DNA from: Candidatus Nealsonbacteria bacterium CG23_combo_of_CG06-09_8_20_14_all_40_13
GTDB lineage: Bacteria; Patescibacteriota; UBA1384; UBA12157_A; GCA-002773005
NCBI GenBank assembly: GCA_002771215.1
Contig: PCRM01000044.1
Location: 15,713-47,894, forward strand
Reading direction: 5' to 3'
DNA: 32,182 nt
Every line of letters begins with the position of its first letter. Position 1 is the first letter of the stretch. Below, piece by piece: positions 8,342 through 31,555 of this stretch. The translations under genes were made by a program, and so were the position numbers. The notes beneath the pieces were generated by a model. The model did not search any database. It saw only the letters and a list, made by a program, of their open reading frames with translations, and had not been told where the DNA came from.

Positions 8342-9214
8342 CTACTTTTGTGTTTTTAGCCAGAAATTTTGTCCATTGGTTTCCAGCTCAATATCGCCCT
8401 TTTCATCAGTCCTTAAAACTTTAATATTTTCAAAAAACTTTAAAAGTTGAGGCGAAGGATGGCCAAACTGATTATTTTTGCCAACTGAAATAATTACTAA
8501 CTCCGGTGAAACCTTATTAAAAAAACTGCTGCTTAAACCATTTTTACTCCCATGATGAGGAACTTTCAAGACATTTGAAGCAAGATTATTGCCGTATTTT
8601 TGCGCCAGCTGGTCTAAGATGCTCTTTTCAGCATCACCGGGAAAAATTACTGTAAATTTATCATATTTAAGCTGACTGACTATCGAAGTGTTATTTAAAT
8701 TATCTACTTGAGCTACTGGTTTATCGGGATATAAAATATCAAGTTCAACATTATTTTCCAAGCTTATCTTCTCGCCTGTTTTAGCCATTGAAGTAGGAAT
8801 GTTTTTATCTTTTATCTGCTTTAAAAACTCAAGATACTCTAAAGTCGTGTGAACCGCATCGGTCATTAGAATGCTCTTAACATGGTAGCTTTTAATAACA
8901 TCAATTAAACCAGAAAGATGGTCCGAATGAGGGTGGGTTAAGAGCATATACTCAATGTCTTTATCATAAAAAGGCATTGCCCGACCCAGTTTTGACAGAA
9001 TTTTATTATCCGGTCCGCCGTCAATCAAAATTTGTGTGCTTTTTTGTTGAACCAAAATCGCATCGCCTTGACCAACATCAAAGAAAAATATATGCAGATT
9101 TGAATTCGGCTTCTGAAAAAAAACAGTCCACACAAAAATTACTGTTACTAAAAGAACTAAAATTGTTAGACGACCAAACTTATCCGATTTAATAGCTTTT
9201 CTAATTTTGTTCAT
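8342..9214 (-). CDS. MBL-fold hydrolase, ComEC C-terminal-domain-like
   Basis: IFFFDVGQGDAILVQQKSTQILIDGGPD...LLTHPHSDHLSGL...LKVPHHGSKNGLSSSFF; overlaps comEC by 14 nt. Confidence 0.88.
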   Translation of the reverse strand: MNKIRKAIKSDKFGRLTILVLLVTVIFVWTVFFQKPNSNLHIFFFDVGQGDAILVQQKSTQILIDGGPDNKILSKLGRAMPFYDKDIEYMLLTHPHSDHLSGLIDVIKSYHVKSILMTDAVHTTLEYLEFLKQIKDKNIPTSMAKTGEKISLENNVELDILYPDKPVAQVDNLNNTSIVSQLKYDKFTVIFPGDAEKSILDQLAQKYGNNLASNVLKVPHHGSKNGLSSSFFNKVSPELVIISVGKNNQFGHPSPQLLKFFENIKVLRTDEKGDIELETNGQNFWLKTQK

Positions 9215-10697
9215 ACATTTTTATACTCCTAGATTTTAAATAATACCAAAGCAAAAGGCCAACTAAAATGAAATAATATAAAAACATCCAAATCAAGTTT
9301 CCTTTGGCGACAGTTAGGGCGCCATATGGCAGCTTTGACAGCTTTTCTATAACCCAGATAATATAATGCAAGGGCAGCCAGGCAAAGTAGCCCAATAGCC
9401 GTCCCAAACCTAACCAAAACATCCCCGAAAATGCCGCAATAAAGCCGATTCCCATAGTCAGAGGAACTAAAGGTAAAACCAGGATATTTGCCAATGGGGC
9501 TACCAAGGAAAGAGTCCCAAAATTTGATATTAAAATAGGTAAAGTAAAAATTTGAGCAGCTAAAGTAGCTGTTAAGGCCTCACTGACAAGAGATGGGACG
9601 CGATTGGAAAAATGCCAGCGTTTTATTAACTTATGGAAAATCGGCTGAAGATAAATTAAGCCCATAACTGCTGCAAATGAGAGCTGGAAACCGACGTCTG
9701 CTTGCAATAAGAGAGGATTGTGCAAAACCATCAATACTGCAGCCAATAATACGGCGATAATGGAATATTCTTTACGTCCCAATTTCCCAGCCAATAAAAA
9801 GATGCTACCCATAATCGCCGCCCTGACAACCGAGGCTGATGCTCCAGTTAAAACAACGAAAAATAAAATAAAAATTAAAGTCAGCCAAAAGCTGATATTA
9901 AATGAGTATTTTTTTAGCCAATCATAAAATATTTTAATTAATATTGAGATATTATATCCGGAAATAGCAATAATATGGGTAGTGCCGGTTGCAGATAAAG
10001 CGTTCATCAGGTCGGGAGGAATTTGACGCCTTGAGCCGATAAGAAGCCCGGCCAGAAAAGAAGCCAGAGGTTCGGGTAAAATAGCGTTCATAGCAAATTC
10101 CATCTTATCCTTTAAAAGGTAAATGTATTTGATTATCAAATTGCCGTCGCTTTTGATAAATTTGATATTCTCAGGCGATTCAATAATGCCGTAAATTTGC
10201 TGCTTGCGAAGGTAACTGACATAATCGAAGTCATTAAAATTTGTTGGTTGTCCTAAAACGCCGGAAAATGATATTGAATCCCCATATTTATATGCAGGAT
10301 AGCGAGGAAATATCGCTAATATATTTAAATTTTTATCATTGGTTTTAACTTTAAAAACTATCCTTTGCTGTTTGGAGCTAACAACTGGCTCATAAATTAT
10401 ATTTCCAACTAGCTCCAATTTTTTTCCAAATGGCATATTTTCGGGTGTTTTATACTTTGAAAACCAATAATTGTATTGAATTGCGATGAATAATACCATA
10501 ATAACTAATGCTAAAAATTTCACGATTTTATCTTGCTTATATACAAAATAAATTAAAACCAAAGCTAAGCACAAAATTGGAAGAAAATAAAAAATATTTT
10601 TGGGTAATTTTTCCAATACATTAATCGGAGATATAACTACACCAATTAAAAAAGTGGCTAAAACTGATATTGTAATCTTTGAACGCGGTAATGACAT
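9201..10697 (-). CDS. comEC: ComEC/Rec2 competence membrane channel
   Basis: ALSATGTTHIIAISGYNISIL motif, LTGASASVVRAAIMGSIFLLA, multiple TM segments. Confidence 0.88.
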   Translation of the reverse strand: MSLPRSKITISVLATFLIGVVISPINVLEKLPKNIFYFLPILCLALVLIYFVYKQDKIVKFLALVIMVLFIAIQYNYWFSKYKTPENMPFGKKLELVGNIIYEPVVSSKQQRIVFKVKTNDKNLNILAIFPRYPAYKYGDSISFSGVLGQPTNFNDFDYVSYLRKQQIYGIIESPENIKFIKSDGNLIIKYIYLLKDKMEFAMNAILPEPLASFLAGLLIGSRRQIPPDLMNALSATGTTHIIAISGYNISILIKIFYDWLKKYSFNISFWLTLIFILFFVVLTGASASVVRAAIMGSIFLLAGKLGRKEYSIIAVLLAAVLMVLHNPLLLQADVGFQLSFAAVMGLIYLQPIFHKLIKRWHFSNRVPSLVSEALTATLAAQIFTLPILISNFGTLSLVAPLANILVLPLVPLTMGIGFIAAFSGMFWLGLGRLLGYFAWLPLHYIIWVIEKLSKLPYGALTVAKGNLIWMFLYYFILVGLLLWYYLKSRSIKMYEQN

Positions 10698-18222: not shown

Positions 18223-20844
18223 TTATGAGGGCTTACCTGCTCTCTTCTTATCTATACTTCTAAAGCACAATTGTTCTGGCACAAAAAAGAGTTCAATATC
18301 ACCGCAAGGACCATTGCGGTGTTTCCTAATTAAGATATCGGCAATATTTTTTCTTTCTGTATCTTTGTCATAATAACCCTCCCGGTAGATAAACATAACG
18401 ACATCAGCATCTTGTTCGATCGAGTTGTGCACAATGATATCATTAGCTACGAAATTGTGGCTGCCCACAACTGTGGCATCATACACTTCTTCAACTGCTA
18501 AAGGTTTAATTTCCAATATCTCGTCCCAGAAGATATCAGATTGGGCAAGATTGACTAATTTTTGATCCGGTATTGCAGTAGTAATGTGCAGCATTCTTTG
18601 GCGCGAAATGCCATTATGATATCTTTGCGTTCCCGAATAAGCCCAACCCAACTGTTGATGAAATTGGCGTGCAGTGAGAGTCCAATAAGACCGCAGCCGA
18701 TTAATTGTCTGCCAGATTTGTTTCGGAATCACGTCCAAATTGGGATTGAATTTAACTTTTTCTAAAAACCCAAGCGCTTTTTTAACCAACTTTTCTTTCT
18801 TCCCAAAAATACCAATTTGGCTTAGGAACTTCCATTGATCCTCTTTGCCGGAAATATCTACATGGTACCCTGGTTGATAGCCTTTTTTGTAACTTCTCCT
18901 TAGGCGTGCCGTGATACCAAAACGAATAAGTAAATGCGCCAATTGGCGAGCCAGCTTTTCACTTTTAGTAGCGTAATAAATGGTCCAGCCGGATTGGCTG
19001 ATATTGCAGCTGTAAGAAATCGTCCCATCGGTGGCCCAAAGATGCTTAATAAATAAGGCGAGTTTCTCTTTCGGTAGCTGAAAAATAATCTGGGGGATCA
19101 CTTTTTCACCAGATCTTTGATTGAAAATTTCTAAATCCGAGAGCCATTTCACAACCGGGTTGTGGCGGCCCCTCGCCAAGGGGTAAGGAGACGTCGTAAA
19201 AAGATGCCACCAATTCTTTTGTTTCACTAACCTGGTTTTGACTCCAAAAGCTTTTTGGGCCGCTATTTTAACTTCTTGCAGGCATAATGGATCGGCGTTG
19301 GTATATTGCAAAGAATGATTTTTAAGATAGCAACCATCGCCAATCAGGTGCGCTAAAACAATAATCTTTTCATCTTCTAAATTTTCTCGCCCTTGATAGG
19401 ATAGTTCTCGCGGTACCGCCAAATGTTCACCTATCTTTAATTGATCAAGTCTCTTCCAGCCCAAAATGGTGTAAAAAGGATGATTAGCCGAAGCGTTGAT
19501 TTCTTTGCCCGAGGCTAAGCGTAGTTTGTAGACCTTTTTTCGGCCCGATGGAAAAGCTTTGACCATCATCTGCCGCTCAAGCTTCAATCCCTCCCTTAAG
19601 CTGAGAACGGGAATTGCTATTTTTTTCTTGGCCAACTCTTTAATCGTGAAAAGCTTACCGGTATGAGCATGCATAATTTGAGTATTGCCGGTTAAACAAC
19701 CACTTTCCCTCAAGTCCGCCAGTTGGGGTCTTTTGCCCGGACGCATTTCAACTGCCCGTGAAAGTTGTGAAAGGGCTAATACGGGAACATTCAGTTCTCT
19801 GGCCAACGCCTTCAGCGCCCGCGATATCTCAGAAACTTCCGCAACTCGATTGTCGCTAGATTTTTGGCTACCAGCCATCAACTGAAGATAATCTATGACT
19901 ATCAAGCCAATTTTACTCTCAAGTTGCAATCGGCGCGCCTTGGTACGAATTTCCGTAACATTCAATAGTGGTGAGTCGTCAATAAAAATTGGCGCTTCAG
20001 ATAAAACACCCATGGCATAGCCAATTTTAGGAAAATCTTCGTCAGTTAAATTACCGGTACGCAACTTCCAAGAATCAAGGCCTGATTGAGAACAGATTAA
20101 TCTGTCCACTAGCTGCTCTTTGCTCATCTCCAGAGAAAATATTCCAACTGGCACTTTTTCTTTGACTGAGGCGTTTAGGGCAATATTCAACGCCAAGGAG
20201 GATTTACCCATCGAAGGTCGAGACGCTAAAATGATTAAATCGGATTGCTGTAGTCCCGCCAACAGGTTATCTAGGTCAGCAAAACCCGTAGGGACACCGC
20301 GCAACATGCTTTTATTTTTAGAAAGCTTATCTATTCTCTCAAATGACTCGGTTAGAACATCTTTAATCGGGATGAAATTCTCTTGCAAAAAGGACTGTGA
20401 AACCGAAAATAACTCCGATTCGGCTTTGTCTAAAACTTTTTCCACATCTTCTGCCTCTTGAAAACCAAATTCTGCTATCTTAGAGGCAGCAGAAATAAGT
20501 CGGCGCAAAACCGATTTTTGCTGAATTATTTGGGCATAATGAGCCACGTGAGCGGCGGTGGGCACAGAATTTACCAAAGAAGTCAAATAGCTTGCCCCGC
20601 CGACATCTTTTAATTTCTTTTCTCTTTCTAATTCATCGGTCAAAGTTACCAGGTCAATTGGAGAACGCTTCTGGTAGAGCTTGAGCATCGCTTGATAAAT
20701 TTGGGCGTGGTCGTTGCGATAAAAGTCAGCGGGAATAATAATATCCGCTACCTTCACAATAGCGTTTTTATCAAGCAAAATAGCGCCCAAAACTGACTGT
20801 TCGGCTTCAACATTTTGTGGTGGAAGTTTGACGCCGTCACTCAT
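18223..20844 (-). CDS. dnaB: Replicative DNA helicase DnaB with in-frame intein
   Basis: MSDGVKLPPQNVEAEQSVLGAILLD; ASRPSMGKSSLALNIA; IDYLQLM; DLRESG|intein|SIEQDADVVMFIYRE. Start ATG 20844 overlaps dnaX stop (ATGAGTGA). Confidence 0.95.
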   Translation of the reverse strand: MSDGVKLPPQNVEAEQSVLGAILLDKNAIVKVADIIIPADFYRNDHAQIYQAMLKLYQKRSPIDLVTLTDELEREKKLKDVGGASYLTSLVNSVPTAAHVAHYAQIIQQKSVLRRLISAASKIAEFGFQEAEDVEKVLDKAESELFSVSQSFLQENFIPIKDVLTESFERIDKLSKNKSMLRGVPTGFADLDNLLAGLQQSDLIILASRPSMGKSSLALNIALNASVKEKVPVGIFSLEMSKEQLVDRLICSQSGLDSWKLRTGNLTDEDFPKIGYAMGVLSEAPIFIDDSPLLNVTEIRTKARRLQLESKIGLIVIDYLQLMAGSQKSSDNRVAEVSEISRALKALARELNVPVLALSQLSRAVEMRPGKRPQLADLRESGCLTGNTQIMHAHTGKLFTIKELAKKKIAIPVLSLREGLKLERQMMVKAFPSGRKKVYKLRLASGKEINASANHPFYTILGWKRLDQLKIGEHLAVPRELSYQGRENLEDEKIIVLAHLIGDGCYLKNHSLQYTNADPLCLQEVKIAAQKAFGVKTRLVKQKNWWHLFTTSPYPLARGRHNPVVKWLSDLEIFNQRSGEKVIPQIIFQLPKEKLALFIKHLWATDGTISYSCNISQSGWTIYYATKSEKLARQLAHLLIRFGITARLRRSYKKGYQPGYHVDISGKEDQWKFLSQIGIFGKKEKLVKKALGFLEKVKFNPNLDVIPKQIWQTINRLRSYWTLTARQFHQQLGWAYSGTQRYHNGISRQRMLHITTAIPDQKLVNLAQSDIFWDEILEIKPLAVEEVYDATVVGSHNFVANDIIVHNSIEQDADVVMFIYREGYYDKDTERKNIADILIRKHRNGPCGDIELFFVPEQLCFRSIDKKRAGKPS
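18424..19698 (-). mobile_element. DnaB intein, 425 aa, LAGLIDADG-type homing endonuclease domain
   Basis: Starts CLTGNTQIMHAHTGKLFTIKEL, ends VGSHNFVANDIIVHN followed by S; endonuclease-like blocks LAHLIGDGCYL and FIKHLWATDGTIS. Confidence 0.93.
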
Positions 20845-22339
20845 CCTGCTCCTCAACTCCAAAAAGGTCTTTGGCAGAAAGAAGCATATCTTCTTCCTCC
20901 TGTTTTATCTTTTCTTTATCCAATAAGATACAATCAATTAATAGGTCTCTCCCCAGAACTTGGCTTAAAGTTTGCTCTATTATAACACGGTTTTGGTGTT
21001 GCAAAATTTTCTCTTTATGAAACTTAAATTGCGCGGCCAAAACCAATTTATTCTCTTCAATAATAACCGGCTTGGCATCTTTGAGTAAAGCAAAAAGCGA
21101 ATGATTATGAGGTTTGATACCATTTAAAATCTTCTCCCATAAAACAGGGTTGATATTTTGCTCTGTTGCTTTTTGATAAGGAGTCTTCCTGTCTGCAGCC
21201 GCATCTGAAATATTTGAAGTTTCTTTATTGGCAGTAACCTTTAAAATATCCTGACCTAATAGTAATTGAGATTTGGCAATGGCCAGTTCTAAAGGCAGTT
21301 GAAGAATAAAACTTGTCTTAATCTGCGATTGACTTTCCAAAAATAGATTGGCCAAAGCTAAAATTTTATCAGGCGCAATAGCTTGGGCTTTTTTGACAAT
21401 CTCTGTTAAATTTTCATCTTCTTGCTCAAAATTGGTCTGCGCGCCCATCTTTAACAAAAGTATTCGGCGCAACGCTGAAACAACCATCTGGTTGAAATTT
21501 AAAAAATCTATACCTTGAACAAATAATTCTTCAATTAAATCAAAAGATTTGTCTTGCTTGCTCTGAAAAATATAACCGATTAACTGGTAGACAGATTCCC
21601 ATTTGCCCAATCCCAAAGCGGCACGAATCTCTTTAACACTAATTTCTTTGTTTTGAGTCAGATTTAAAGATTTTATCTGGTCTAAAATGGAAATGGCATC
21701 ACGAAAAGCGCCGTCTGAAAGGCTAGCAATTAAATTTAGGCCTTCGGAAGAAATTTTAAAATCTTCTTCTTTGGCAATTTTGGACAAAAGCTGGACAATT
21801 TCTTTAATTTTGGCCCTTTTGAAATCAAACTGCTGGCAACGGGAGAGAATAGTCGCCGGCACTTTGTGCGCTTCAGTAGTTGCCAAAATAAAAATTACGT
21901 GGGCGGGTGGCTCTTCCAAAGTTTTCAACAGCGCATTAAATGCTTCGCGGGTAAGCATATGGCATTCATCAATAATAATTACCTTATATTTACCTAAACT
22001 GGGGGCAAATTTTACTTTTTCGCGCAATTCCCTCACCTCATCAATTCCGCGGTTAGACGCGGCGTCAATTTCAATTAAATCCAAACTCTTGCCGGAAATT
22101 ATCTCCACGCAACTTTGACATTTATTGCATGGTTCGGCTTTGCCTTTCTGACAATTGAAAGCTTTAGCCAAAATTCTGGCGACGGTTGTTTTACCCGTAC
22201 CTTTAGGCCCGGCAAATAAATACGCGTGCGAAATTCGACCACTCTCCAAAGCCGACACCAGCACTTTCTTGATGTGGTCCTGAGAGTGAACATCTTTAAA
22301 TTTTTGGGGTCTGTATTTACGATATAAAGAGAGTGACAT
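20837..22339 (-). CDS. dnaX: DNA polymerase III subunit gamma/tau
   Basis: MSLSLYRKYRPQKFKDVHSQDHIKKVL, FAGPKGTGKTTVARILAKAFNC, CxxCxxC-like zinc module, DECHMLTREAFNALLKTLEEPP. Confidence 0.95.
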   Translation of the reverse strand: MSLSLYRKYRPQKFKDVHSQDHIKKVLVSALESGRISHAYLFAGPKGTGKTTVARILAKAFNCQKGKAEPCNKCQSCVEIISGKSLDLIEIDAASNRGIDEVRELREKVKFAPSLGKYKVIIIDECHMLTREAFNALLKTLEEPPAHVIFILATTEAHKVPATILSRCQQFDFKRAKIKEIVQLLSKIAKEEDFKISSEGLNLIASLSDGAFRDAISILDQIKSLNLTQNKEISVKEIRAALGLGKWESVYQLIGYIFQSKQDKSFDLIEELFVQGIDFLNFNQMVVSALRRILLLKMGAQTNFEQEDENLTEIVKKAQAIAPDKILALANLFLESQSQIKTSFILQLPLELAIAKSQLLLGQDILKVTANKETSNISDAAADRKTPYQKATEQNINPVLWEKILNGIKPHNHSLFALLKDAKPVIIEENKLVLAAQFKFHKEKILQHQNRVIIEQTLSQVLGRDLLIDCILLDKEKIKQEEEDMLLSAKDLFGVEEQDE

Positions 22340-22447
22340 TAATTTGCCTTTGCGTTTTTATCATAAACGTATATCTTTTTTTAAGCAATGGTGGTAAAAT
22401 GAAGAGCAAAAGGTTACCGGTTAATAGTTAATTGATTAGACAAATTC

Positions 22448-22466
22448 GTCGTCCCGTCGGGACGAC
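22448..22466 (+). promoter_or_regulatory. Perfect 8-bp hairpin just upstream of the pilB SD
   Basis: GTCGTCCC-GTC-GGGACGAC, ending 4 nt before AAGGAGG. Confidence 0.6.
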
Positions 22467-22482
22467 AAGTAAGGAGGGGTTT

Positions 22483-24336
22483 TTGACTTTTCAACAGTTT
22501 ATCAAAGAATTTGCCATCAAAAAACAGCAGTCCTTTCTCAAAGCTACCAAAGACGTCAAAGCACTAGTAAACCTTCTCTCCGAGAAGATTGTCTCAAAGG
22601 AAAAAATACAAATCCCCGGCTTTGGCACTTTTGTAGTATTACAATATCCTTCCCGTACCGTAAAAAACCCCCGTGACCCTGGTAAAAAAATGGTGATATT
22701 AGCCCAGAATGTAGTGAAATTTCATTCAAGCTCTAATTTAAAATCGCAACTTTCAAATATTAAATGGGAGAGCCCTATGCAAAATATCACCAAGAAAATT
22801 TTTATCCCCTACGCTGATTTGTCAAAAATCACTGTCCAGAAAGAAATTTTGTCGCAAATCCCAGAGCATATCGCCCGTCATTACCAAGTCGTACCAATTG
22901 AAGAAAAAGTCAACACATTAGTTGTGGCGATGATTGATCCTGAAGATGAAGAAGTAATTGAGATGCTCAAGAAAAAAACCGGCAAAAAAATTGAGCGCAG
23001 AATTACCACTATGGACGACTTAAGCCATGTATTAGACCAGTATTCCAACATTGGCGCCGAGGTAGAAAAAATAGTTGAAGAAGCAGTTTTAGCAAAAACC
23101 AAACCTAAAGAAGAAATAAAAGGAAAGCCAGAAGAAATTCCTCAAAACGCCCCAGCGGCTAAGATCGTTTCTTCACTTTTGAAACGCGCCGTCCATGATA
23201 AGGCCTCTGATATCCATATTGAACCAGAGGAAAAAGATGTTGCCGTGCGTCTTCGAATTGATGGCGTTTTGAGAAAAATCATCAATTTGCCCAAAGATAT
23301 CCACTCAGCTCTAATTTCAAGATTTAAAATACTTTGCAACCTAAAAATTGATGAAACGCGCCTGCCTCAAGACGGCCGCTTCAGAGCCACAGTTGACCGC
23401 GCTGAAATTGACCTTCGGGTTTCTACTTTGCCGACTGTTTTTGGTGAAAAAGTGGTCGCCAGAATTTTGGACAAATCTGCCGGCGTGCTCACATTAGATC
23501 AGCTGGGCTTACGCGGCCGCTCTTTTGAAATTTTAAGGGATAATATCAAAAAATCACATGGTATGATTTTAGTCACCGGTCCCACTGGCTCGGGTAAAAC
23601 CACCACCTTGTACGCTATTATTGACCAAATCCAAAATGAGGGTATTAATATCATAACTTTGGAAGATCCGGTAGAGTATCAAATGCCAGGCATTAACCAG
23701 AGCCAAGTCAATGCGGAAATTAAATACACTTTTGCTACCGGTTTGCGCTCCATTGTGCGCCAGGACCCGGATATCATTATGATTGGAGAAATTCGCGACT
23801 ATGAAACAGCCAATATGGCTGTGCACGCTGCTTTGACAGGACATGTTGTCTTATCCACCTTGCACACCAACGATGCCTCGGGCGCCATTCCTCGCCTGAT
23901 TGATATGAAAATAGAGCCCTTTCTAATCACTTCAACCTTAAATGTGGTCATTGCCCAACGTCTTTGCCGAAAAATCTGTGAAGACTGCAAAAAGGAAATC
24001 CCTCTTTTAGAAGATCAACGTGTTCTGATTGAACAAGAAATTAGAAATTTGCCTAAAGAAGAGAGAAAAGAAACTGAAGGCAAAAAATACACCCTATTTC
24101 ATGGTGAGGGTTGTAATTTATGCTCTCAAACCGGCTACAAAGGTCGCATTGGTATTTTTGAAATCTTACCTCTCCAGGAATCACTTAAAATGCTCATCAA
24201 TCAACGCGTTTCCTCTGACCAAATCGCCAAAGAAGCTTTAAAATTAGGTATGCTGACTTTAAAGCAAGACGGCATTTTAAAGGTGATTGCCGGCATTACC
24301 ACCCTAGACGAAGTTTACAGAGTAACAAAAGACTAA
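22483..24336 (+). CDS. pilB: HU/IHF-like domain fused to PilB/GspE-type pilus assembly ATPase
   Basis: TTG start after AAGGAGG. N-term IPGFGTFVVLQYPSRTVKNPRDPGKKMVILAQNVVKFHSSSNLKSQL is HU-like; then MshEN-like domain and VTGPTGSGKTTTLYAII, IMIGEIRDYETANMAVHAALTGHVVLSTLHTND, CxxC pairs. Confidence 0.88.
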   Translation: MTFQQFIKEFAIKKQQSFLKATKDVKALVNLLSEKIVSKEKIQIPGFGTFVVLQYPSRTVKNPRDPGKKMVILAQNVVKFHSSSNLKSQLSNIKWESPMQNITKKIFIPYADLSKITVQKEILSQIPEHIARHYQVVPIEEKVNTLVVAMIDPEDEEVIEMLKKKTGKKIERRITTMDDLSHVLDQYSNIGAEVEKIVEEAVLAKTKPKEEIKGKPEEIPQNAPAAKIVSSLLKRAVHDKASDIHIEPEEKDVAVRLRIDGVLRKIINLPKDIHSALISRFKILCNLKIDETRLPQDGRFRATVDRAEIDLRVSTLPTVFGEKVVARILDKSAGVLTLDQLGLRGRSFEILRDNIKKSHGMILVTGPTGSGKTTTLYAIIDQIQNEGINIITLEDPVEYQMPGINQSQVNAEIKYTFATGLRSIVRQDPDIIMIGEIRDYETANMAVHAALTGHVVLSTLHTNDASGAIPRLIDMKIEPFLITSTLNVVIAQRLCRKICEDCKKEIPLLEDQRVLIEQEIRNLPKEERKETEGKKYTLFHGEGCNLCSQTGYKGRIGIFEILPLQESLKMLINQRVSSDQIAKEALKLGMLTLKQDGILKVIAGITTLDEVYRVTKD

Positions 24337-24337
24337 A

Positions 24338-25534
24338 ATGACTTTCAAATACGAAGTTTGCAACAAAAGCGGGCAAAGTTTTAAAGGTGAAATTGAGGCT
24401 GACAATCAACCAGCCGCAATTAAGTCATTGCGAGAACAGGGTTTTTACATTTTGGAAATTAAAAACAAAACCACCTTTAGTGGTTTTAATATTCTTAAAA
24501 ACCGCATACCGCTTAGAGAAAAAATTATCTTTACCCAACAGCTGGGAATTATGATTAAAGCTGGTCTGCCGCTAATTGAAGCGCTGGCCACCCTGCAAGA
24601 TCAAACTTCAAACAAAGCTTTAGCCAAAATCATCTCCAGTATTATTGCCGATGTCAAAGGCGGCGAAGCATTATCAAAAGCGCTGGCCAAACACCCCTCT
24701 GTCTTTCCGCGACTTTACTCCAACGTTGTCAGCTCTGGCGAAAAAACCGGTAAATTAGAAGAAGTGATGCAGCGGCTTTCAGAACAAATGATCCGTGATT
24801 ATGACTTGGTTTCCAAAGTCCGCACGGCGATGTATTATCCTGCCTTTATCCTTACGGCGCTGGTAGGAGTGATTATAATGATCTTAATCTATGTCATCCC
24901 GCAACTGCAAAAAATATTTGAAGAAGTAGAGGTGCCCTTGCCCATTACCACCCGCGCTCTGCTTTTTACAAGCAATGCGGTCAAATATTATTGGTGGCTG
25001 CTGCTGATTTTCATTGTTGCTGTATATCTTTTGATTAAGAGATTAGCCAAAAATGAGCAGGTCGCTTTATATCTTGACAAGATAAAATTGAAAATGCCAA
25101 TCTTTGGCCCGCTGTTTATAAAGGTTTATATGGCTCGGTTTTCCCGAACGATGGCCACTTTGATAGCCGCCGGCCTTCCTATGCTTGATGTTTTTGACAC
25201 CGTTGCCGATGTTCTCAATAACAAGGTTTTGCAGCAATCCTTAAAAAATGCCTCCAAACAAGTGGAAGCCGGCATGACGCTTTCCTCCATTTTGATGAAA
25301 GACCCCAATTTCCCGCCGATGGTTTCTCGATTAATCTCAGTTGGCGAAAAATCCGGCAATATTGACTTTGTTTTGGCCGGTACCGCTGATTTTTATGATA
25401 AAGAGGTAGACAATGCCACCAAATCGCTTTCATCACTTATAGAGCCCATTTTAATGATTATTATGGGAATTGGCGTCTTCCTTGTACTTACGGCCGTCAT
25501 TATGCCCATTTATAGCTTAGTCAATGTTATATAA
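24338..25534 (+). CDS. pilC: Type IV pilus inner membrane platform protein PilC/GspF
   Basis: FTQQLGIMIKAGLPLIEAL, FPRLYSNVVSSGEKTGKLEEVM, FSRTMATLIAAGLPMLD, SVGEKSGNIDFVL. Confidence 0.93.
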   Translation: MTFKYEVCNKSGQSFKGEIEADNQPAAIKSLREQGFYILEIKNKTTFSGFNILKNRIPLREKIIFTQQLGIMIKAGLPLIEALATLQDQTSNKALAKIISSIIADVKGGEALSKALAKHPSVFPRLYSNVVSSGEKTGKLEEVMQRLSEQMIRDYDLVSKVRTAMYYPAFILTALVGVIIMILIYVIPQLQKIFEEVEVPLPITTRALLFTSNAVKYYWWLLLIFIVAVYLLIKRLAKNEQVALYLDKIKLKMPIFGPLFIKVYMARFSRTMATLIAAGLPMLDVFDTVADVLNNKVLQQSLKNASKQVEAGMTLSSILMKDPNFPPMVSRLISVGEKSGNIDFVLAGTADFYDKEVDNATKSLSSLIEPILMIIMGIGVFLVLTAVIMPIYSLVNVI

Positions 25535-25778: not shown

Positions 25779-26192
25779 ATGAACCGATTACCAAAAAAAT
25801 ATAATCGCGGTTACAGTTTAGTTGAGTTGATCGTCGTGATCGCCATTGCCGGTAGTGTTTTGGTGACAATTTATTTAAGTTTGCTTTATGCCTTAAAAAT
25901 TAATCTGCGCGCCCGACATTCAACCTTTGCCTATCAGTCTGCCGAGCAAGAAATGGAAATTATCCGCAATACCCCTTTTGCCAATCTGACCAACCAGACG
26001 AGCGGTTCTTTTTTGGGCACAGTTAGCACGTTGCAACAGCTGCCGTCCGGCACTGGCACTTTAACCATTCAAGATTATCAGAGCAACAATAAAATTAAAG
26101 AAATAGTTGTTATTATCAGTTGGCAGGAAAAAACCCAAAGCAAGCAAGTCACCCAGTCAACATTGCGCGCTGAAGGAGGAATCGGCCAATGA
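25779..26192 (+). CDS. Type IV pilin-like/minor pseudopilin
   Basis: Prepilin motif NRG|YSLVELIVVIAIAGSVLVTIYLSLLYAL. Confidence 0.85.
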   Translation: MNRLPKKYNRGYSLVELIVVIAIAGSVLVTIYLSLLYALKINLRARHSTFAYQSAEQEMEIIRNTPFANLTNQTSGSFLGTVSTLQQLPSGTGTLTIQDYQSNNKIKEIVVIISWQEKTQSKQVTQSTLRAEGGIGQ

Positions 26193-27322
26193 AAAAAGCA
26201 TGCCCAAAGCGCAGTCGAAGGGTTTACCCCGAGTGCAGTCGAAGGGGCGTAACTTTAATTGAGATGATTGTTGTCATCGCAATTTTGGGCGTCGCGTCTA
26301 GCATTGTCTATACCATCTTTACCCAGTCGCAAAAAACCTACAATATTGAGCAAAATCAAACGGCATTGCAGATGGATATTCGCGCCTCTGTTGATGAAAT
26401 TACCAGGCGGGTTAAACAAGCCTCATCCTCTGCTTCTATTTTTGCTAATCCCGCCCCGGCCACTACTGGTTATGTTGACCTTAGCGGCGATAATGCCCTA
26501 TCTTGGCAAACAGCAGTTCCTTCGGGCGCACATTATACAACGTTAGATGATGGCACAAGACAACCCGCCGTACCAAACACAACAGATTATATTACGGATA
26601 TGGGCCCACCATCAAGAAATGATGATTTTAACGTTGATATGAGCACCTTGGCGGCTGATTCGGTAAATTCAGTAAAACTTTGGGCTTATGCCAAAAATGA
26701 GGCGCCCGTTCCTTTGAATGTTAATATCTATATTGCTGGTGCTTGGCAAACAGCTGATACGAGCAATACTCTAACTGGTAGTTATGCTTGGTATTCTGCC
26801 ACTTGGACTGGGACTTGGACACAAGCTGACTTGGACGCCTTGAGGATTAGGGTAATGAAAACAGGTGGGGGGACGATAACCGAAACTGTTGCCGCCATAT
26901 ATGCAGAGGTTACTTATACATCAAACATTGCCGGTTATGGCCAGACACCGTTTAATTACACTGCCGTCACAGGCACGGCTTCTGATGTTTTAATCATCAA
27001 AATTATGTCGGAAGACACCTCTGGCAATATTATTCCGAATTCCTACGATTATTATATTTACAAACGCAGCGGCACCAGCCCTTCAGTTTTACAGGAAATA
27101 TTGATTGCCAACTCCGCCAGCGCCCGAAAGTCAAAAACAAAAACCCTGATGCAAAAAGTTTCTGCGTTTAGTGTGACTTACTTCAATTCGCAAGGCAACC
27201 CGATTACCTCTTCTTTTGAGAACGCCTCGATGGTCAAAGTTAAGCTGGACGGACAAGATATAACGGCCGGCAAAACCACAAACTCCAGTTTCACTTCAGC
27301 TAGCCGGCTGCGTAATTTTTAG
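26189..27322 (+). CDS. Minor pseudopilin (PilW/PulJ-like) with inserted beta-sandwich-like domain
   Basis: Prepilin motif RRG|VTLIEMIVVIAILGVASSIVYTIF; insert TTGYVDLSGDN...YAEVTYTS in the middle. Confidence 0.8.
   Translation: MKKACPKRSRRVYPECSRRGVTLIEMIVVIAILGVASSIVYTIFTQSQKTYNIEQNQTALQMDIRASVDEITRRVKQASSSASIFANPAPATTGYVDLSGDNALSWQTAVPSGAHYTTLDDGTRQPAVPNTTDYITDMGPPSRNDDFNVDMSTLAADSVNSVKLWAYAKNEAPVPLNVNIYIAGAWQTADTSNTLTGSYAWYSATWTGTWTQADLDALRIRVMKTGGGTITETVAAIYAEVTYTSNIAGYGQTPFNYTAVTGTASDVLIIKIMSEDTSGNIIPNSYDYYIYKRSGTSPSVLQEILIANSASARKSKTKTLMQKVSAFSVTYFNSQGNPITSSFENASMVKVKLDGQDITAGKTTNSSFTSASRLRNF
26203..26247 (+). repeat. Two direct copies of the short palindromic-type repeat ...GCAGTCGAAGGG inside the prepilin leader
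   Basis: CCCAAAGCGCAGTCGAAGGG and CCCCGAGTGCAGTCGAAGGGG, in frame. Confidence 0.8.
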
Positions 27323-27330
27323 GAGTTGCG

Positions 27331-28641
27331 ATGAAACAACAAAAGGGTCAGATGTTAGTGGCGGCGCTTATCATCGCTACCGTAGTTATGCTTTTAGTCA
27401 CCGCGCTATTGTCTTATGCGACTTTCGGCAACTTTTCTGCCAATCGCTCTTTAAAACGCTCGCAGGCAATGGCTATCGCCGAAGCAGGGGTTGATAAGAC
27501 AATCATGTCATTGAATGGAGATGCCAACTACTCCGGAGAAACTGATACTGTTTTCGGCGGAGGTACTTTTTCTGTAATCCTCTCCGGCTTAGGAGATTCA
27601 AGAATCATCAAATCAAAAGGCAAAGTCGGGAATATCGAAAAAGTTATCCGGGCCCAAGCTGTGGTTGCTACTGATAAAGTTGAATTTCATTATGGTGCGC
27701 AGGTTGGAAGTTTAGGCCTAATTATGAGCAATCAAAGTAAAATATCAGGCACAGGAGGAGCAGCTGGGAATGTCTATTCAAATGGGAGCATCATCCCCTA
27801 CTCTCCTGGACATCGAGGAACAATTACCGGCGATGTTTATGTGGCTAAAAATGGAAATAGAATCGAAAATATAGATATCGGACATGATGCCCATGCCCAC
27901 ATCTTAAAAAATTGTACTGTGGCTAATGATATTTATTATGTCTCAGGAGGAAGCGTCCAAAATTGTACCTACGGTGGGACGGTTAAAGTAGAAATAGGAG
28001 CAATCCCCGAAAAGCCCCTGCCTATTGCACCAGAATCTATTTCTAAATGGGAGTCAGAAGCAGCAGCTGGCGGGGAAAGGGGACCTTATACTTTATCTGG
28101 CAAAGATGCGACTGTTTCTTTGGGTCCAATTAAGATAAATGGTGATATGTTGATTGATAACAACGCGATTTTGACTGTCACTGGAACAATTTGGGTAACC
28201 GGGAATATCACCATCAGAAATGGGGTAATTGTCAAATTATCTTCGGGCTATGGTGCAAGGAGCGGCATTATTATCGGCGATGGTCCTTCCACCCCGGCGG
28301 AGGCAGGTAAAATCTGGGTAGGAAATGATGTCACGGTGGGCGGTTCAGGCTCCACCGGCAGTTATATTATGCTTCTTTCAACCAACACCAAATCAAATCC
28401 CGATGATCCAGCGATTAATGCTGGCAATAACAGCACTTCGGTTATTTTCTATGCCTCAAGGGGGATGATTACGATTGAAAATAATGCCTCTTTAAAAGAG
28501 GTCACAGGCTATGGTCTTTATTTAAAAAACGGCGCCCAAATTACTTACGAAAGTGGTTTAGCTTCAACAACTAACTTTGCCTCTGGTCCGGGAGGTAGCT
28601 GGAAGTTTAAAAAAGACAGCTGGCAGGAAATTAAGGAATGA
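27331..28641 (+). CDS. PilX-like pilus assembly protein with long beta-rich C-terminal region
   Basis: MKQQKGQMLVAALIIATVVMLLVTALLSY...RSQAMAIAEAGVDKTIMSL; GNVYSNGSI, GDVYV, INGDMLIDNNAILTVTGTIWVTGNITIRNG. Confidence 0.7.
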   Translation: MKQQKGQMLVAALIIATVVMLLVTALLSYATFGNFSANRSLKRSQAMAIAEAGVDKTIMSLNGDANYSGETDTVFGGGTFSVILSGLGDSRIIKSKGKVGNIEKVIRAQAVVATDKVEFHYGAQVGSLGLIMSNQSKISGTGGAAGNVYSNGSIIPYSPGHRGTITGDVYVAKNGNRIENIDIGHDAHAHILKNCTVANDIYYVSGGSVQNCTYGGTVKVEIGAIPEKPLPIAPESISKWESEAAAGGERGPYTLSGKDATVSLGPIKINGDMLIDNNAILTVTGTIWVTGNITIRNGVIVKLSSGYGARSGIIIGDGPSTPAEAGKIWVGNDVTVGGSGSTGSYIMLLSTNTKSNPDDPAINAGNNSTSVIFYASRGMITIENNASLKEVTGYGLYLKNGAQITYESGLASTTNFASGPGGSWKFKKDSWQEIKE

Positions 28642-28795: not shown

Positions 28796-28813
28796 TCATT
28801 GAGGAGGGGTATT

Positions 28814-29854
28814 TTGTTCCAACTTGGCAAATCAACAGTATTTGGTTTAGATATAGGTTTTGGCTCGGTTAAGGTTGTTCAACTAAAAAAATCGGGCAAA
28901 GATATTTCTATAGTGGGCTTCGCGAGAGAACCAATTGCTGAAAAATCTCTGCAAAAAACCAAAATTTTAGAAAAAAATAAGATTCAAGAAGCCCTCAAAA
29001 AAGCAGTTAAATCTGCTAAACCTCACGCTATCACCACTAAGGCTGTCTGCGCGGCACTGCCGGAACACTTGGTTTTCACCAAAGTGATTGAATTGCCTAA
29101 AATTAAAGAAAATGCTCTTGCTAAAACTATCCCCTATGAAGCGGGCGAATTTATGCCCATCTCTCTTGAAGAAACCTATCTTGATTGGCAAATTTTAGGC
29201 GACAACCCGGACAAAAGCAAAATTGAAGTTTTGGTTGTGGCTGCGCCCAAAACTTTAGTTGACGATTATATTGACCTGGTCAAACAAGCTGATTTGCAAC
29301 TTTTTGCCTTGGAAACTAAACCTATCTCCGCTGTCAGAGCCATTGCCAAAAACGAAAAAGAAGGTTTGGCAATCTTGGATATCGGCGCTGAAGCTTCCGG
29401 TATCGCCATTGTAGATCAAGGCATTATCCGTTTAACCGGTACGGTGACAGTCGGCGCCAATATGGTAGATAAAGCACTGCAAACAAACCTAAATTTAAAG
29501 CCTGAAGACGCCAGCAAAATTAAATATGAAAGCGGTCTCTCCTTCAAGACCGAGACAAAAACCAAAGAAATTATCCAGCAGGCGCTGGCGCCCATCACCG
29601 ATGAGTTGGCGCATACTATCAAATATTACCAGAGCCGTATCAAAGCCGAAGGCAAAATTGCCAAAATCAAGCTTTGCGGCGGCGGCGCGGCAATACAGGG
29701 CATCGCTGATTATTTCTCCAGACAAACCGGCATTCACACTGAAATTGGCAATCCGCTTGTGCACCTGTCTAAATCATCAGAGAAAATCTTATCCAAAACA
29801 GATGCCCTGCCTTACACCACGGCTATCGGGCTGGCTTTAAGGGAGTTGGGATGA
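28814..29854 (+). CDS. pilM: Type IV pilus assembly protein PilM
   Basis: TTG start after GAGGAGGGG; FGLDIGFGSVKVVQLKK, LAILDIGAEASGIAIVDQG, IKLCGGGAAIQGIADYFS. Confidence 0.9.
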   Translation: MFQLGKSTVFGLDIGFGSVKVVQLKKSGKDISIVGFAREPIAEKSLQKTKILEKNKIQEALKKAVKSAKPHAITTKAVCAALPEHLVFTKVIELPKIKENALAKTIPYEAGEFMPISLEETYLDWQILGDNPDKSKIEVLVVAAPKTLVDDYIDLVKQADLQLFALETKPISAVRAIAKNEKEGLAILDIGAEASGIAIVDQGIIRLTGTVTVGANMVDKALQTNLNLKPEDASKIKYESGLSFKTETKTKEIIQQALAPITDELAHTIKYYQSRIKAEGKIAKIKLCGGGAAIQGIADYFSRQTGIHTEIGNPLVHLSKSSEKILSKTDALPYTTAIGLALRELG

Positions 29855-30417
29855 TAAATTTTTCCATCAATTTGCTGCCTGCCAACCTTAAAGCAAACAG
29901 AAAAATAAGTTTGCAAAATACCACACTGCTGTCACTTTGCATCACAGCCGTCATTATTTATGTTATTTTGCTCGCCATTATTTTTTCCCTTAAAACAACC
30001 TTAGCGCTGTCGGAAAAGGTTGACGAGCGGCAAATTGACAATCTGCAGGTTGAAATTGCCAGCTTCAAAGACATTCAAGCCCAGATAAATTTTATCAATG
30101 ACAGAGGTGCAGAGCTTAAAAATAAAGATGCCGACAAAAATAAACTGATGTCTAATATTATCGCCGAAATAGCCCAGTCCACTCCTTCTGATGTGCAGAT
30201 CCAGCAGCTTTCCGCCAACGTTAAAACAAAGCCCAATTTTAAAATAACTGGTGCAACCACTTCCATTGCAGAAGCGGTAAAATTTAAAGAGAAGTTAGAA
30301 GAAAGCCAATTTTTTGGCGAGACTAATCTGCAATCCGCTGCCACCGATTCAACCACGCATCAGGTAATATTTAACATTGATTTCAATTTGCAGACATCTG
30401 GAGAAAGCCAAAAATGA
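29851..30417 (+). CDS. pilN: PilN-like protein
   Basis: MINFSINLLPANLK start, one TM, position after pilM (ATGA overlap). Confidence 0.82.
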   Translation: MINFSINLLPANLKANRKISLQNTTLLSLCITAVIIYVILLAIIFSLKTTLALSEKVDERQIDNLQVEIASFKDIQAQINFINDRGAELKNKDADKNKLMSNIIAEIAQSTPSDVQIQQLSANVKTKPNFKITGATTSIAEAVKFKEKLEESQFFGETNLQSAATDSTTHQVIFNIDFNLQTSGESQK

Positions 30418-31154
30418 TTATCTTCAACAAAACATTTTGGGCTATACTACTTTCAACTTTAATTTTTGTGCTGGCTTCCGCTTGGTTTATTGGCAAGCCC
30501 TTGGTTGAAAGCGCCTGGCAGGCCTACGGCAAAAAAGCCGATAATAAACAGCAAATTACCTCGCTGGAAGAGAAACTTGCCTCTCTGCAGAGCTTGAAGA
30601 AAAACCAGACAAAAGTTAGCGATATTTATCAAAAAGCTGAAAATTTTCTTCCCAAAGAGAAAAATGAAGGTCGATTTGCCGTCCAGATTGAAGATCAGTC
30701 GGGCAAAGTAGGGTTGATTTTAAGTAATTTAACCTTCACCGCTACTAAAGAGCAAGTAAATCAAACACAAACATCAGAAGAAACGACCCAAGCCCAAGGC
30801 GCCAGCCAAGAAACTACCCCAACTTCTGCCCCCAAAGAAAAGTATCCGTCTGTCGGCTTCAGCACCGACTTGACCAGCGGCTGGAGCCAGCTTTTAAGCT
30901 TGCTGCAGCTGATTGAAAATGGCGCCCGCTCTAATAATCTTTACACTTTAAGCATAAATAAAGGCGAGGGCGACAATTTGGCAGTCAGAATTGAGGGAGT
31001 TATTTACTATAAGCCATCAGTTGTAGAAAACGACCAAACCAATACAAATATTTCGCCCGAATTAGAGCGAAAATTTGAAACTTTAGGCCAAAGCGTACCG
31101 GCTTTAGACCTCACCCATGGCTTTGGCAGAGAAAACCCGTTTGCCTCTTATTAA
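30414..31154 (+). CDS. pilO: PilO-like protein
   Basis: N-terminal TM, coiled coil, position after pilN (ATGA overlap). Confidence 0.75.
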   Translation: MIIFNKTFWAILLSTLIFVLASAWFIGKPLVESAWQAYGKKADNKQQITSLEEKLASLQSLKKNQTKVSDIYQKAENFLPKEKNEGRFAVQIEDQSGKVGLILSNLTFTATKEQVNQTQTSEETTQAQGASQETTPTSAPKEKYPSVGFSTDLTSGWSQLLSLLQLIENGARSNNLYTLSINKGEGDNLAVRIEGVIYYKPSVVENDQTNTNISPELERKFETLGQSVPALDLTHGFGRENPFASY

Positions 31155-31555
31155 CTGGCGATATTTTTGATATTTTTTTCAATAACTGACTTGATTTTTT
31201 CAATCACCTCTTTTGGCATGGTCTCTGATTTAACGATATAATCAGCCGCTCCCGATTTGAGACCTCTTTGCTTGTTGGTGTCTTGAATCAAGGCAGTTAA
31301 GATAATAATGGGGATATTTTTGGTTTCCGGAGTGGTTTTCAAAATATCCAGCACATCAAACCCGTTAACTTTCGGCATCATCAGATCCAGCAAAATCAGC
31401 TGGGGCAAAATATCCACCGCGCGCGCCAGGCCTTCCTCGCCGTTTGAGGCCGTGGTCACCTCATAACCTTCGGCTGCCAGCCGCTCTTTGTACATTTCCA
31501 GCAATGTCACATCATCATCAACAATAAGTACTCTTGTTTTAGGATTGTCTTCCAT
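31151..31555 (-). CDS. CheY-like response regulator receiver domain
   Basis: RVLIVDDDVTLLEMYKERLAAEGYEV...LILLDLMMPKVNGFDVLDIL...IIILTALIQ...ADYIVKSE. Confidence 0.93.
   Translation of the reverse strand: MEDNPKTRVLIVDDDVTLLEMYKERLAAEGYEVTTASNGEEGLARAVDILPQLILLDLMMPKVNGFDVLDILKTTPETKNIPIIILTALIQDTNKQRGLKSGAADYIVKSETMPKEVIEKIKSVIEKNIKNIAS

Follow-up and report, generated by a model that had tools for sequence, protein, structure and literature searches.

HU folds are obligate dimers, and sequence specificity is usually absent from HU. HU modules inside larger proteins are already known, as in the Pfam families HU-HIG and HU-CCDC81; an HU domain on a pilus motor was not found described in the openly available journal papers searched. 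Pilus motors work at the membrane, where contact with the chromosome is not expected, and PilB is cytoplasmic.

In the CPR, the pilT-less type IV pilus T4P-2 of the saccharibacterium Nanosynbacter lyticus TM7x is dispensable for competence (PMC12206443). In Southlakia epibionticum, transformation needs ComEC, and that T4P are essential seems to have nothing to do with competence (PMC10633639). Here we describe a locus in which an HU domain forms the N-terminus of a PilB-type ATPase. The locus lies in the window, by which we mean the whole stretch of 32,182 nucleotides that was analysed.

The fusion gene and its neighbours

The gene occupies a single open frame, 22432-24336 (+), without stop or frame break (634 aa counted from the first TTG). 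The likely start is the TTG at 22483, which AGGAGG precedes at a distance of 5 nt, so that the HU domain starts at residue 1; a GGAGG-type ribosome site lies at the equivalent position, directly 5' of the HU start, in most relatives. The domain matches PF00216 over residues 1-90 (model positions 1-89 of 90, E 1.6e-14) with 54.3 bits against a cut-off of 22.4, and is thus a full-length HU domain; a PDB sequence search returned Bacillus HU first (2.4e-8). The AlphaFold2 model of the domain, built on an alignment of 27 HU sequences from viral contigs, reached a pLDDT of 93.2, as against 36.5 for a single-sequence prediction of residues 1-129. The top Foldseek matches of the model are HU/IHF-type proteins with a TM-score of about 0.8 and up to 0.85, among them 3rhi (2.6e-7). 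This HU copy carries a net charge of +11 (pI 10.3) and keeps the Asn62-Pro63 arm tip, and the same genome also encodes a separate, ordinary free HU.

An earlier note, made from the letters of the window, had read an HU domain fused in frame to PilB with no stop or frame break at the join, and this reading stands: the frame is open throughout, and the same frame recurs in relatives. The two circumstances that the note had set against itself were separate HU and PilB ORFs in relatives together with an indel in the reads, and an N-terminus unlike HU; the relatives were found to have the fusion and not separate ORFs, and both profile and predicted fold are those of HU.

In the PilB part, Walker A and B, the His box and the zinc tetracysteine are all intact. 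The protein scores 551 bits with the equivalog model TIGR02538, below its cut-off of 675.65, and is therefore called PilB-type from its domains and gene neighbourhood, and not as that equivalog. The linker between the two parts, about 17 aa here, is about 20 to 290 aa long in relatives. Within it, an internal ATG makes a second, PilB-only product of 519 aa possible in this genome, against 617 aa for the whole protein; most relatives have no good start at the PilB border, internal candidates occurring only in the window and, weakly, in one relative (L144). The palindrome upstream of the gene, whose 15-base core occurs once in the genome, is a possible leader hairpin or operator. Comparable palindromes precede few of the relatives' fusion genes and are not conserved in most, and the idea of a conserved operator was rejected on this ground.

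Table 1. Features of the HU-pilB gene and the surrounding pilus locus (window coordinates)
Feature	Position	Strand	Evidence and remarks
dnaX	20837..22339	-	Divergent neighbour; identified from sequence, position and synteny
Palindrome GTCGTCCC-GTC-GGGACGAC	22448..22466	+	Perfect, 8 bp; just 5' of the Shine-Dalgarno
Shine-Dalgarno AGGAGG of the fusion gene (within AAGGAGGGG)	22472..22477	+	Read directly in the sequence
HU/IHF domain	22483..22752	+	About 90 aa, N-terminus of the fusion protein; PF00216, AlphaFold2, Foldseek
Short HU-PilB linker	22753..22803	+	From Pfam domain borders
Internal ATG	22777..22779	+	GGAG 6 nt upstream; candidate second start
MshEN (N1) domain of PilB	22804..23046	+	PF05157, 5e-18
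PilB N2 domain and ATPase core (T2SSE)	23146..24321	+	PF00437, 7.6e-130
Walker A GPTGSGKTTTLY	about 23578-23613
Walker B region	about 23761-23799
pilC, platform protein	24338..25534	+	PF00482, 1.6e-64
Three pilin-like genes	25779..28641	+	First two with N-methylation motif, PF07963
pilM, pilN, pilO	28799..31154	+	PF11104, 4.2e-47; PF05137, 2.4e-8; pilO by position and size only
Response regulator	31151..31555	-	PF00072, 8e-24; end of the pilus locus

The dnaB and dnaX genes are oriented away from the operon, which runs HU-pilB, pilC, pilin-like genes, pilM, pilN, pilO and response regulator. This order recurs in the class, and the response regulator gene is a conserved neighbour of the pilus locus in relatives, as judged by synteny. 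The third pilin-like gene is PilX-like by resemblance only. The leader MKKACPKRSRRVYPECSRRGVTLIE of a pilin-like gene (26189-26245) holds two copies of the near-repeated stretch GCAGTCGAAGGG, which may be a dispersed repeat that was inserted ahead of the methylation motif. No pilT is present in the fusion operon. A second T4P locus in the same genome has its own pilB2, pilT and pilC, and pilB2 shows, by eye, two MshEN-like regions. The second-system PilB proteins of two loci (L167, G000:C43; L169, G022:C25) are 757-815 aa long and have an N-terminus that looks like two tandem MshEN-type regions; pilT and pilC adjoin their genes.

Two further genes of the window deserve mention in their own right. 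The DnaB helicase (18223-20862, -) holds an intein with a LAGLIDADG endonuclease (PF14890, 2e-23; PF14528, 1.6e-22), and a DnaB of similar length, 875 aa, in a relative (L156, G030) may carry an intein too. ComEC (8342-10697, -) appears split, its membrane part (PF03772) being overlapped by a separate gene of metallo-beta-lactamase-like type.

Spread of the fusion and separate fates of its halves

A search of CPR genomes for HU-PilB, which the earlier note had proposed, found HU and PilB in one frame in 25 relatives of the same class (61 related genomes searched). With the window, 26 genomes thus have an HU start with no stop before PilB, one of them (L125) being frame-broken further on within PilB. 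In the relatives the fusion usually adjoins dnaX, an adjacency that marks the locus across the class, and it is common to most of the families examined. When the fusion profile was run against 332 genomes of the phylum, those of the matches listed that start in the HU part all belonged to the window's class; in about 300 genomes of other classes there was no such fusion among the matches listed, a list of about 150 that weak fusions outside the class may have escaped.

It could be argued that a missed stop or a chance read-through has produced the fusion in assembly or annotation, the window being known from a single metagenome assembly. Nothing was found in favour of this. Against it stand the same frame in 25 other genomes, the Shine-Dalgarno at the HU start in most of them, and purifying selection to either side of the HU-PilB join: in the closest and cleanest motor-intact pair, HU has a dN/dS of 0.044 and the remainder of the protein one of 0.021. 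As the fusion recurs and the start-site pattern is consistent, an artefact was rejected, its probability being close to nil.

The dnaX-linked PilBs of the class form one clade in the PilB tree (SH-aLRT 98), within which only family f13 lacks HU; in f12 and in a single member of f14 the domain is decayed. The PilB tree fits a fusion that was apparently gained once and later decayed or was lost. The HU-domain tree, little resolved with its 95 columns, does not reject a single origin of all fused copies and remnants (p-AU 0.487).

The mean net charge of fused HU is +5.2 and more scattered, as against +10.9 for free HU, and Asn62-Pro63 is retained in only three of the 26 fused copies. In f7 the fused HU is acidic (-5 to -10), Asn-Pro is lost and the arm is shortened in most members, with the motor intact; f13, which lost HU, is the sister of f7 (SH-aLRT 98). 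The f7 members L127, L133, L141 and L144 have a charge-reversed HU fold. Judged by its charge and its mostly shortened arm, the acidic f7 fold is unlikely to bind DNA, so that DNA binding cannot be universal among fused HU domains.

In other families the motor was lost and HU was kept. Walker B and the His box are gone from all three f10 members, and Walker A from two of them; in these pseudo-ATPase PilBs (L115, L116, L120) the nucleotide motifs are lost and the zinc cysteines retained. Next to the f10 fusion gene, pilC, pilM, pilN and pilO were not found, and the same four genes are missing from the locus of f18, f20 and f25, where the gene adjoining dnaX encodes HU and about 150 residues or more, the ATPase being gone. 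In f18 and f20 the C-terminus matches PilB in the N2 domain only, at the expected place (E 6.8e-6 and 1.7e-4); that of f25 (L124) alone gave no significant PilB match, and this gene is counted as a remnant because of its position beside dnaX and its HU. The f10 and f18 remnants adjoin a PilX-like pilin, and those of f20 and f25 a membrane protein with a dockerin-like stretch, both neighbours being named by eye. Elsewhere in the genomes with remnants there is a further PilB and, in most cases, a further PilC, so that these genomes are not pilus-free.

Eight loci (L161, L162, L163, L164, L166, L122, L138 and L139) encode HU and a PilB N2 remnant without ATPase. Most of those that were read out adjoin dnaX, and each has a small neighbour of pilin-like or TM/dockerin-like type wherever this was read; their products are possibly a new family of DNA-binding proteins.

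The remnant HU domains remain basic, with a mean net charge of +10. In f10 and f18, whose motor is dead or gone, HU is the more strongly conserved half, with identities for HU and the rest of 65 vs 48% (f10) and 70 vs 59% (f18); in motor-active pairs the order is the opposite (94 vs 97% and 64 vs 75%). The reversal comes from one pair in each of two families, and identities are the safer guide here, because synonymous sites are saturated in most pairs.

Possible roles of the HU domain

What function(s) could HU perform on a pilus motor? On the one hand, HU is kept where the motor has gone; on the other hand, the motor persists where HU first loses its charge and then vanishes. From this pattern of sequences it follows that the HU part has a function separable from driving the pilus. 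The remnants still adjoin pilin-like or membrane protein genes, so that this function may not be independent of pili. The basic HU copies, the window's included, look able to bind DNA. For this reason we favour, at about even probability, non-specific contact with chromosomal DNA, the HU domain acting as a nucleoid tether or as a regulator of one of the two pili. The lower and scattered charge of fused HU and the rarity of Asn62-Pro63 speak against this reading.

The main rival, which we consider less likely, takes HU as purely structural: its dimerisation fold would aid the assembly of PilB1 or its pairing with another protein, and DNA binding would be a leftover. The obligate dimerisation of HU folds is in keeping with such a role, as are the loss of the intercalating Asn-Pro from most fused copies and the f7 domain, with its recognisable yet acidic fold on an intact motor. 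That PilB elsewhere functions without HU has also been counted in its favour. However, the ATPase-less remnants retain a strongly basic HU, and the acidic f7 domain is sister to the HU-less f13, as if the domain were worth little without DNA contact. It is less probable still that HU-PilB moonlights as a regulator of its own operon; either the HU part or a product arising by cleavage or from a separate start would then bind DNA near the intergenic region between dnaX and pilB. The locus remains beside dnaX, and the window's gene has both an internal start and, 5' of it, a palindrome with a genome-unique core, but few of the relatives' genes are preceded by palindromes, good internal starts are missing in the other genomes, and HU is usually without sequence specificity.

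The earlier note had suggested a link with DNA uptake. On such a reading, HU would act with ComEC and take over incoming DNA at the base of the pilus during transformation. A comEC gene is indeed present in the same window (PF03772, 2.8e-52), and Patescibacteria are naturally transformable via ComEC (PMC10633639). Nevertheless, ComEC occurs in 48 of 55 genomes of the class with or without fused HU, and this near-universality leaves no contrast in co-occurrence with the fusion. The fusion locus is without pilT, which the second T4P locus has, and other CPR classes with com genes have no fusion among the matches listed. Moreover, a cytoplasmic PilB would not bring its HU domain into contact with outside DNA. 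Given the absent contrast and the contrary data on the likewise pilT-less T4P-2 of TM7x (PMC12206443), the uptake reading was rejected as very improbable.

The sequences show that the fusion exists, how widely it is spread and where its translation starts; they also show a pattern compatible with a single origin and, in some lineages, an HU domain that outlived the motor. Contact with the chromosome could have come about as follows. A class-level CPR lineage would have gained HU at the N-terminus of its dnaX-linked T4P extension ATPase (PilB1). If fused HU domains pair like free HU, each PilB hexamer would bear three HU dimers, flexibly linked to it on the cytoplasmic side of the membrane. In the basic form, as in the window, HU would bind chromosomal DNA without sequence specificity and, once bound, anchor, position or gate the base of the pilus at the nucleoid. 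Motor-free HU would persist as a small protein that binds DNA, its gene lying next to one for a pilin-like or membrane protein. The whole course, a chromosome-tethered pilus motor whose DNA-binding half was freed in at least two lineages after the motor died, turning a pilus ATPase into a DNA-binding protein, is offered tentatively, and we place it somewhat short of an even chance.

If true, a conserved DNA-binding domain on the motor would connect the assembly of pili with the nucleoid, pilus base and nucleoid being neighbours in such small cells. It would also offer a specific way to test how CPR cells position or regulate their two pili. Within a single class, HU has been recruited, neutralised, lost or set free again, and this amounts to a natural experiment on the purpose of the domain.

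Comparison with described systems

Like the Saccharibacteria T4P-2 of TM7x, the fusion locus belongs to one of two pili in a CPR cell, is without pilT and has a DNA-metabolism operon nearby, recAX there and dnaX here; T4P-2 belongs to another class, no fusion is mentioned in the accessible part of the source, and the two are likened by features, not by homology (PMC12206443). With PilB/GspE (PF05157 and PF00437) the protein shares MshEN, N2 and the ATPase motifs, followed by pilC, pilins and pilM/N/O; it differs in its extra N-terminal HU, in scoring below the cut-off of TIGR02533 as well as that of TIGR02538, and in the absence of pilT from its locus. The HU-HIG and HU-CCDC81 fusions (PF18291, PF18175 and related models) likewise use HU as a module in a larger protein. 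Matches to PF18291 in some fused relatives are weak and mostly under the cut-off, and the partners named in its description are wHTH, Ig or glycine-rich parts, a pilus motor not being among them. With the window domain, the specific models of HU-alpha/beta and IHF give scores under their cut-offs. With the HU/IHF family (PF00216) it shares the whole domain, the fold, the GFGTF motif, the basic charge and, in the window copy, the Asn-Pro arm tip; it differs by an additional residue in the turn of the arm (NPRDPGKK) and in being covalently joined to a pilus ATPase.
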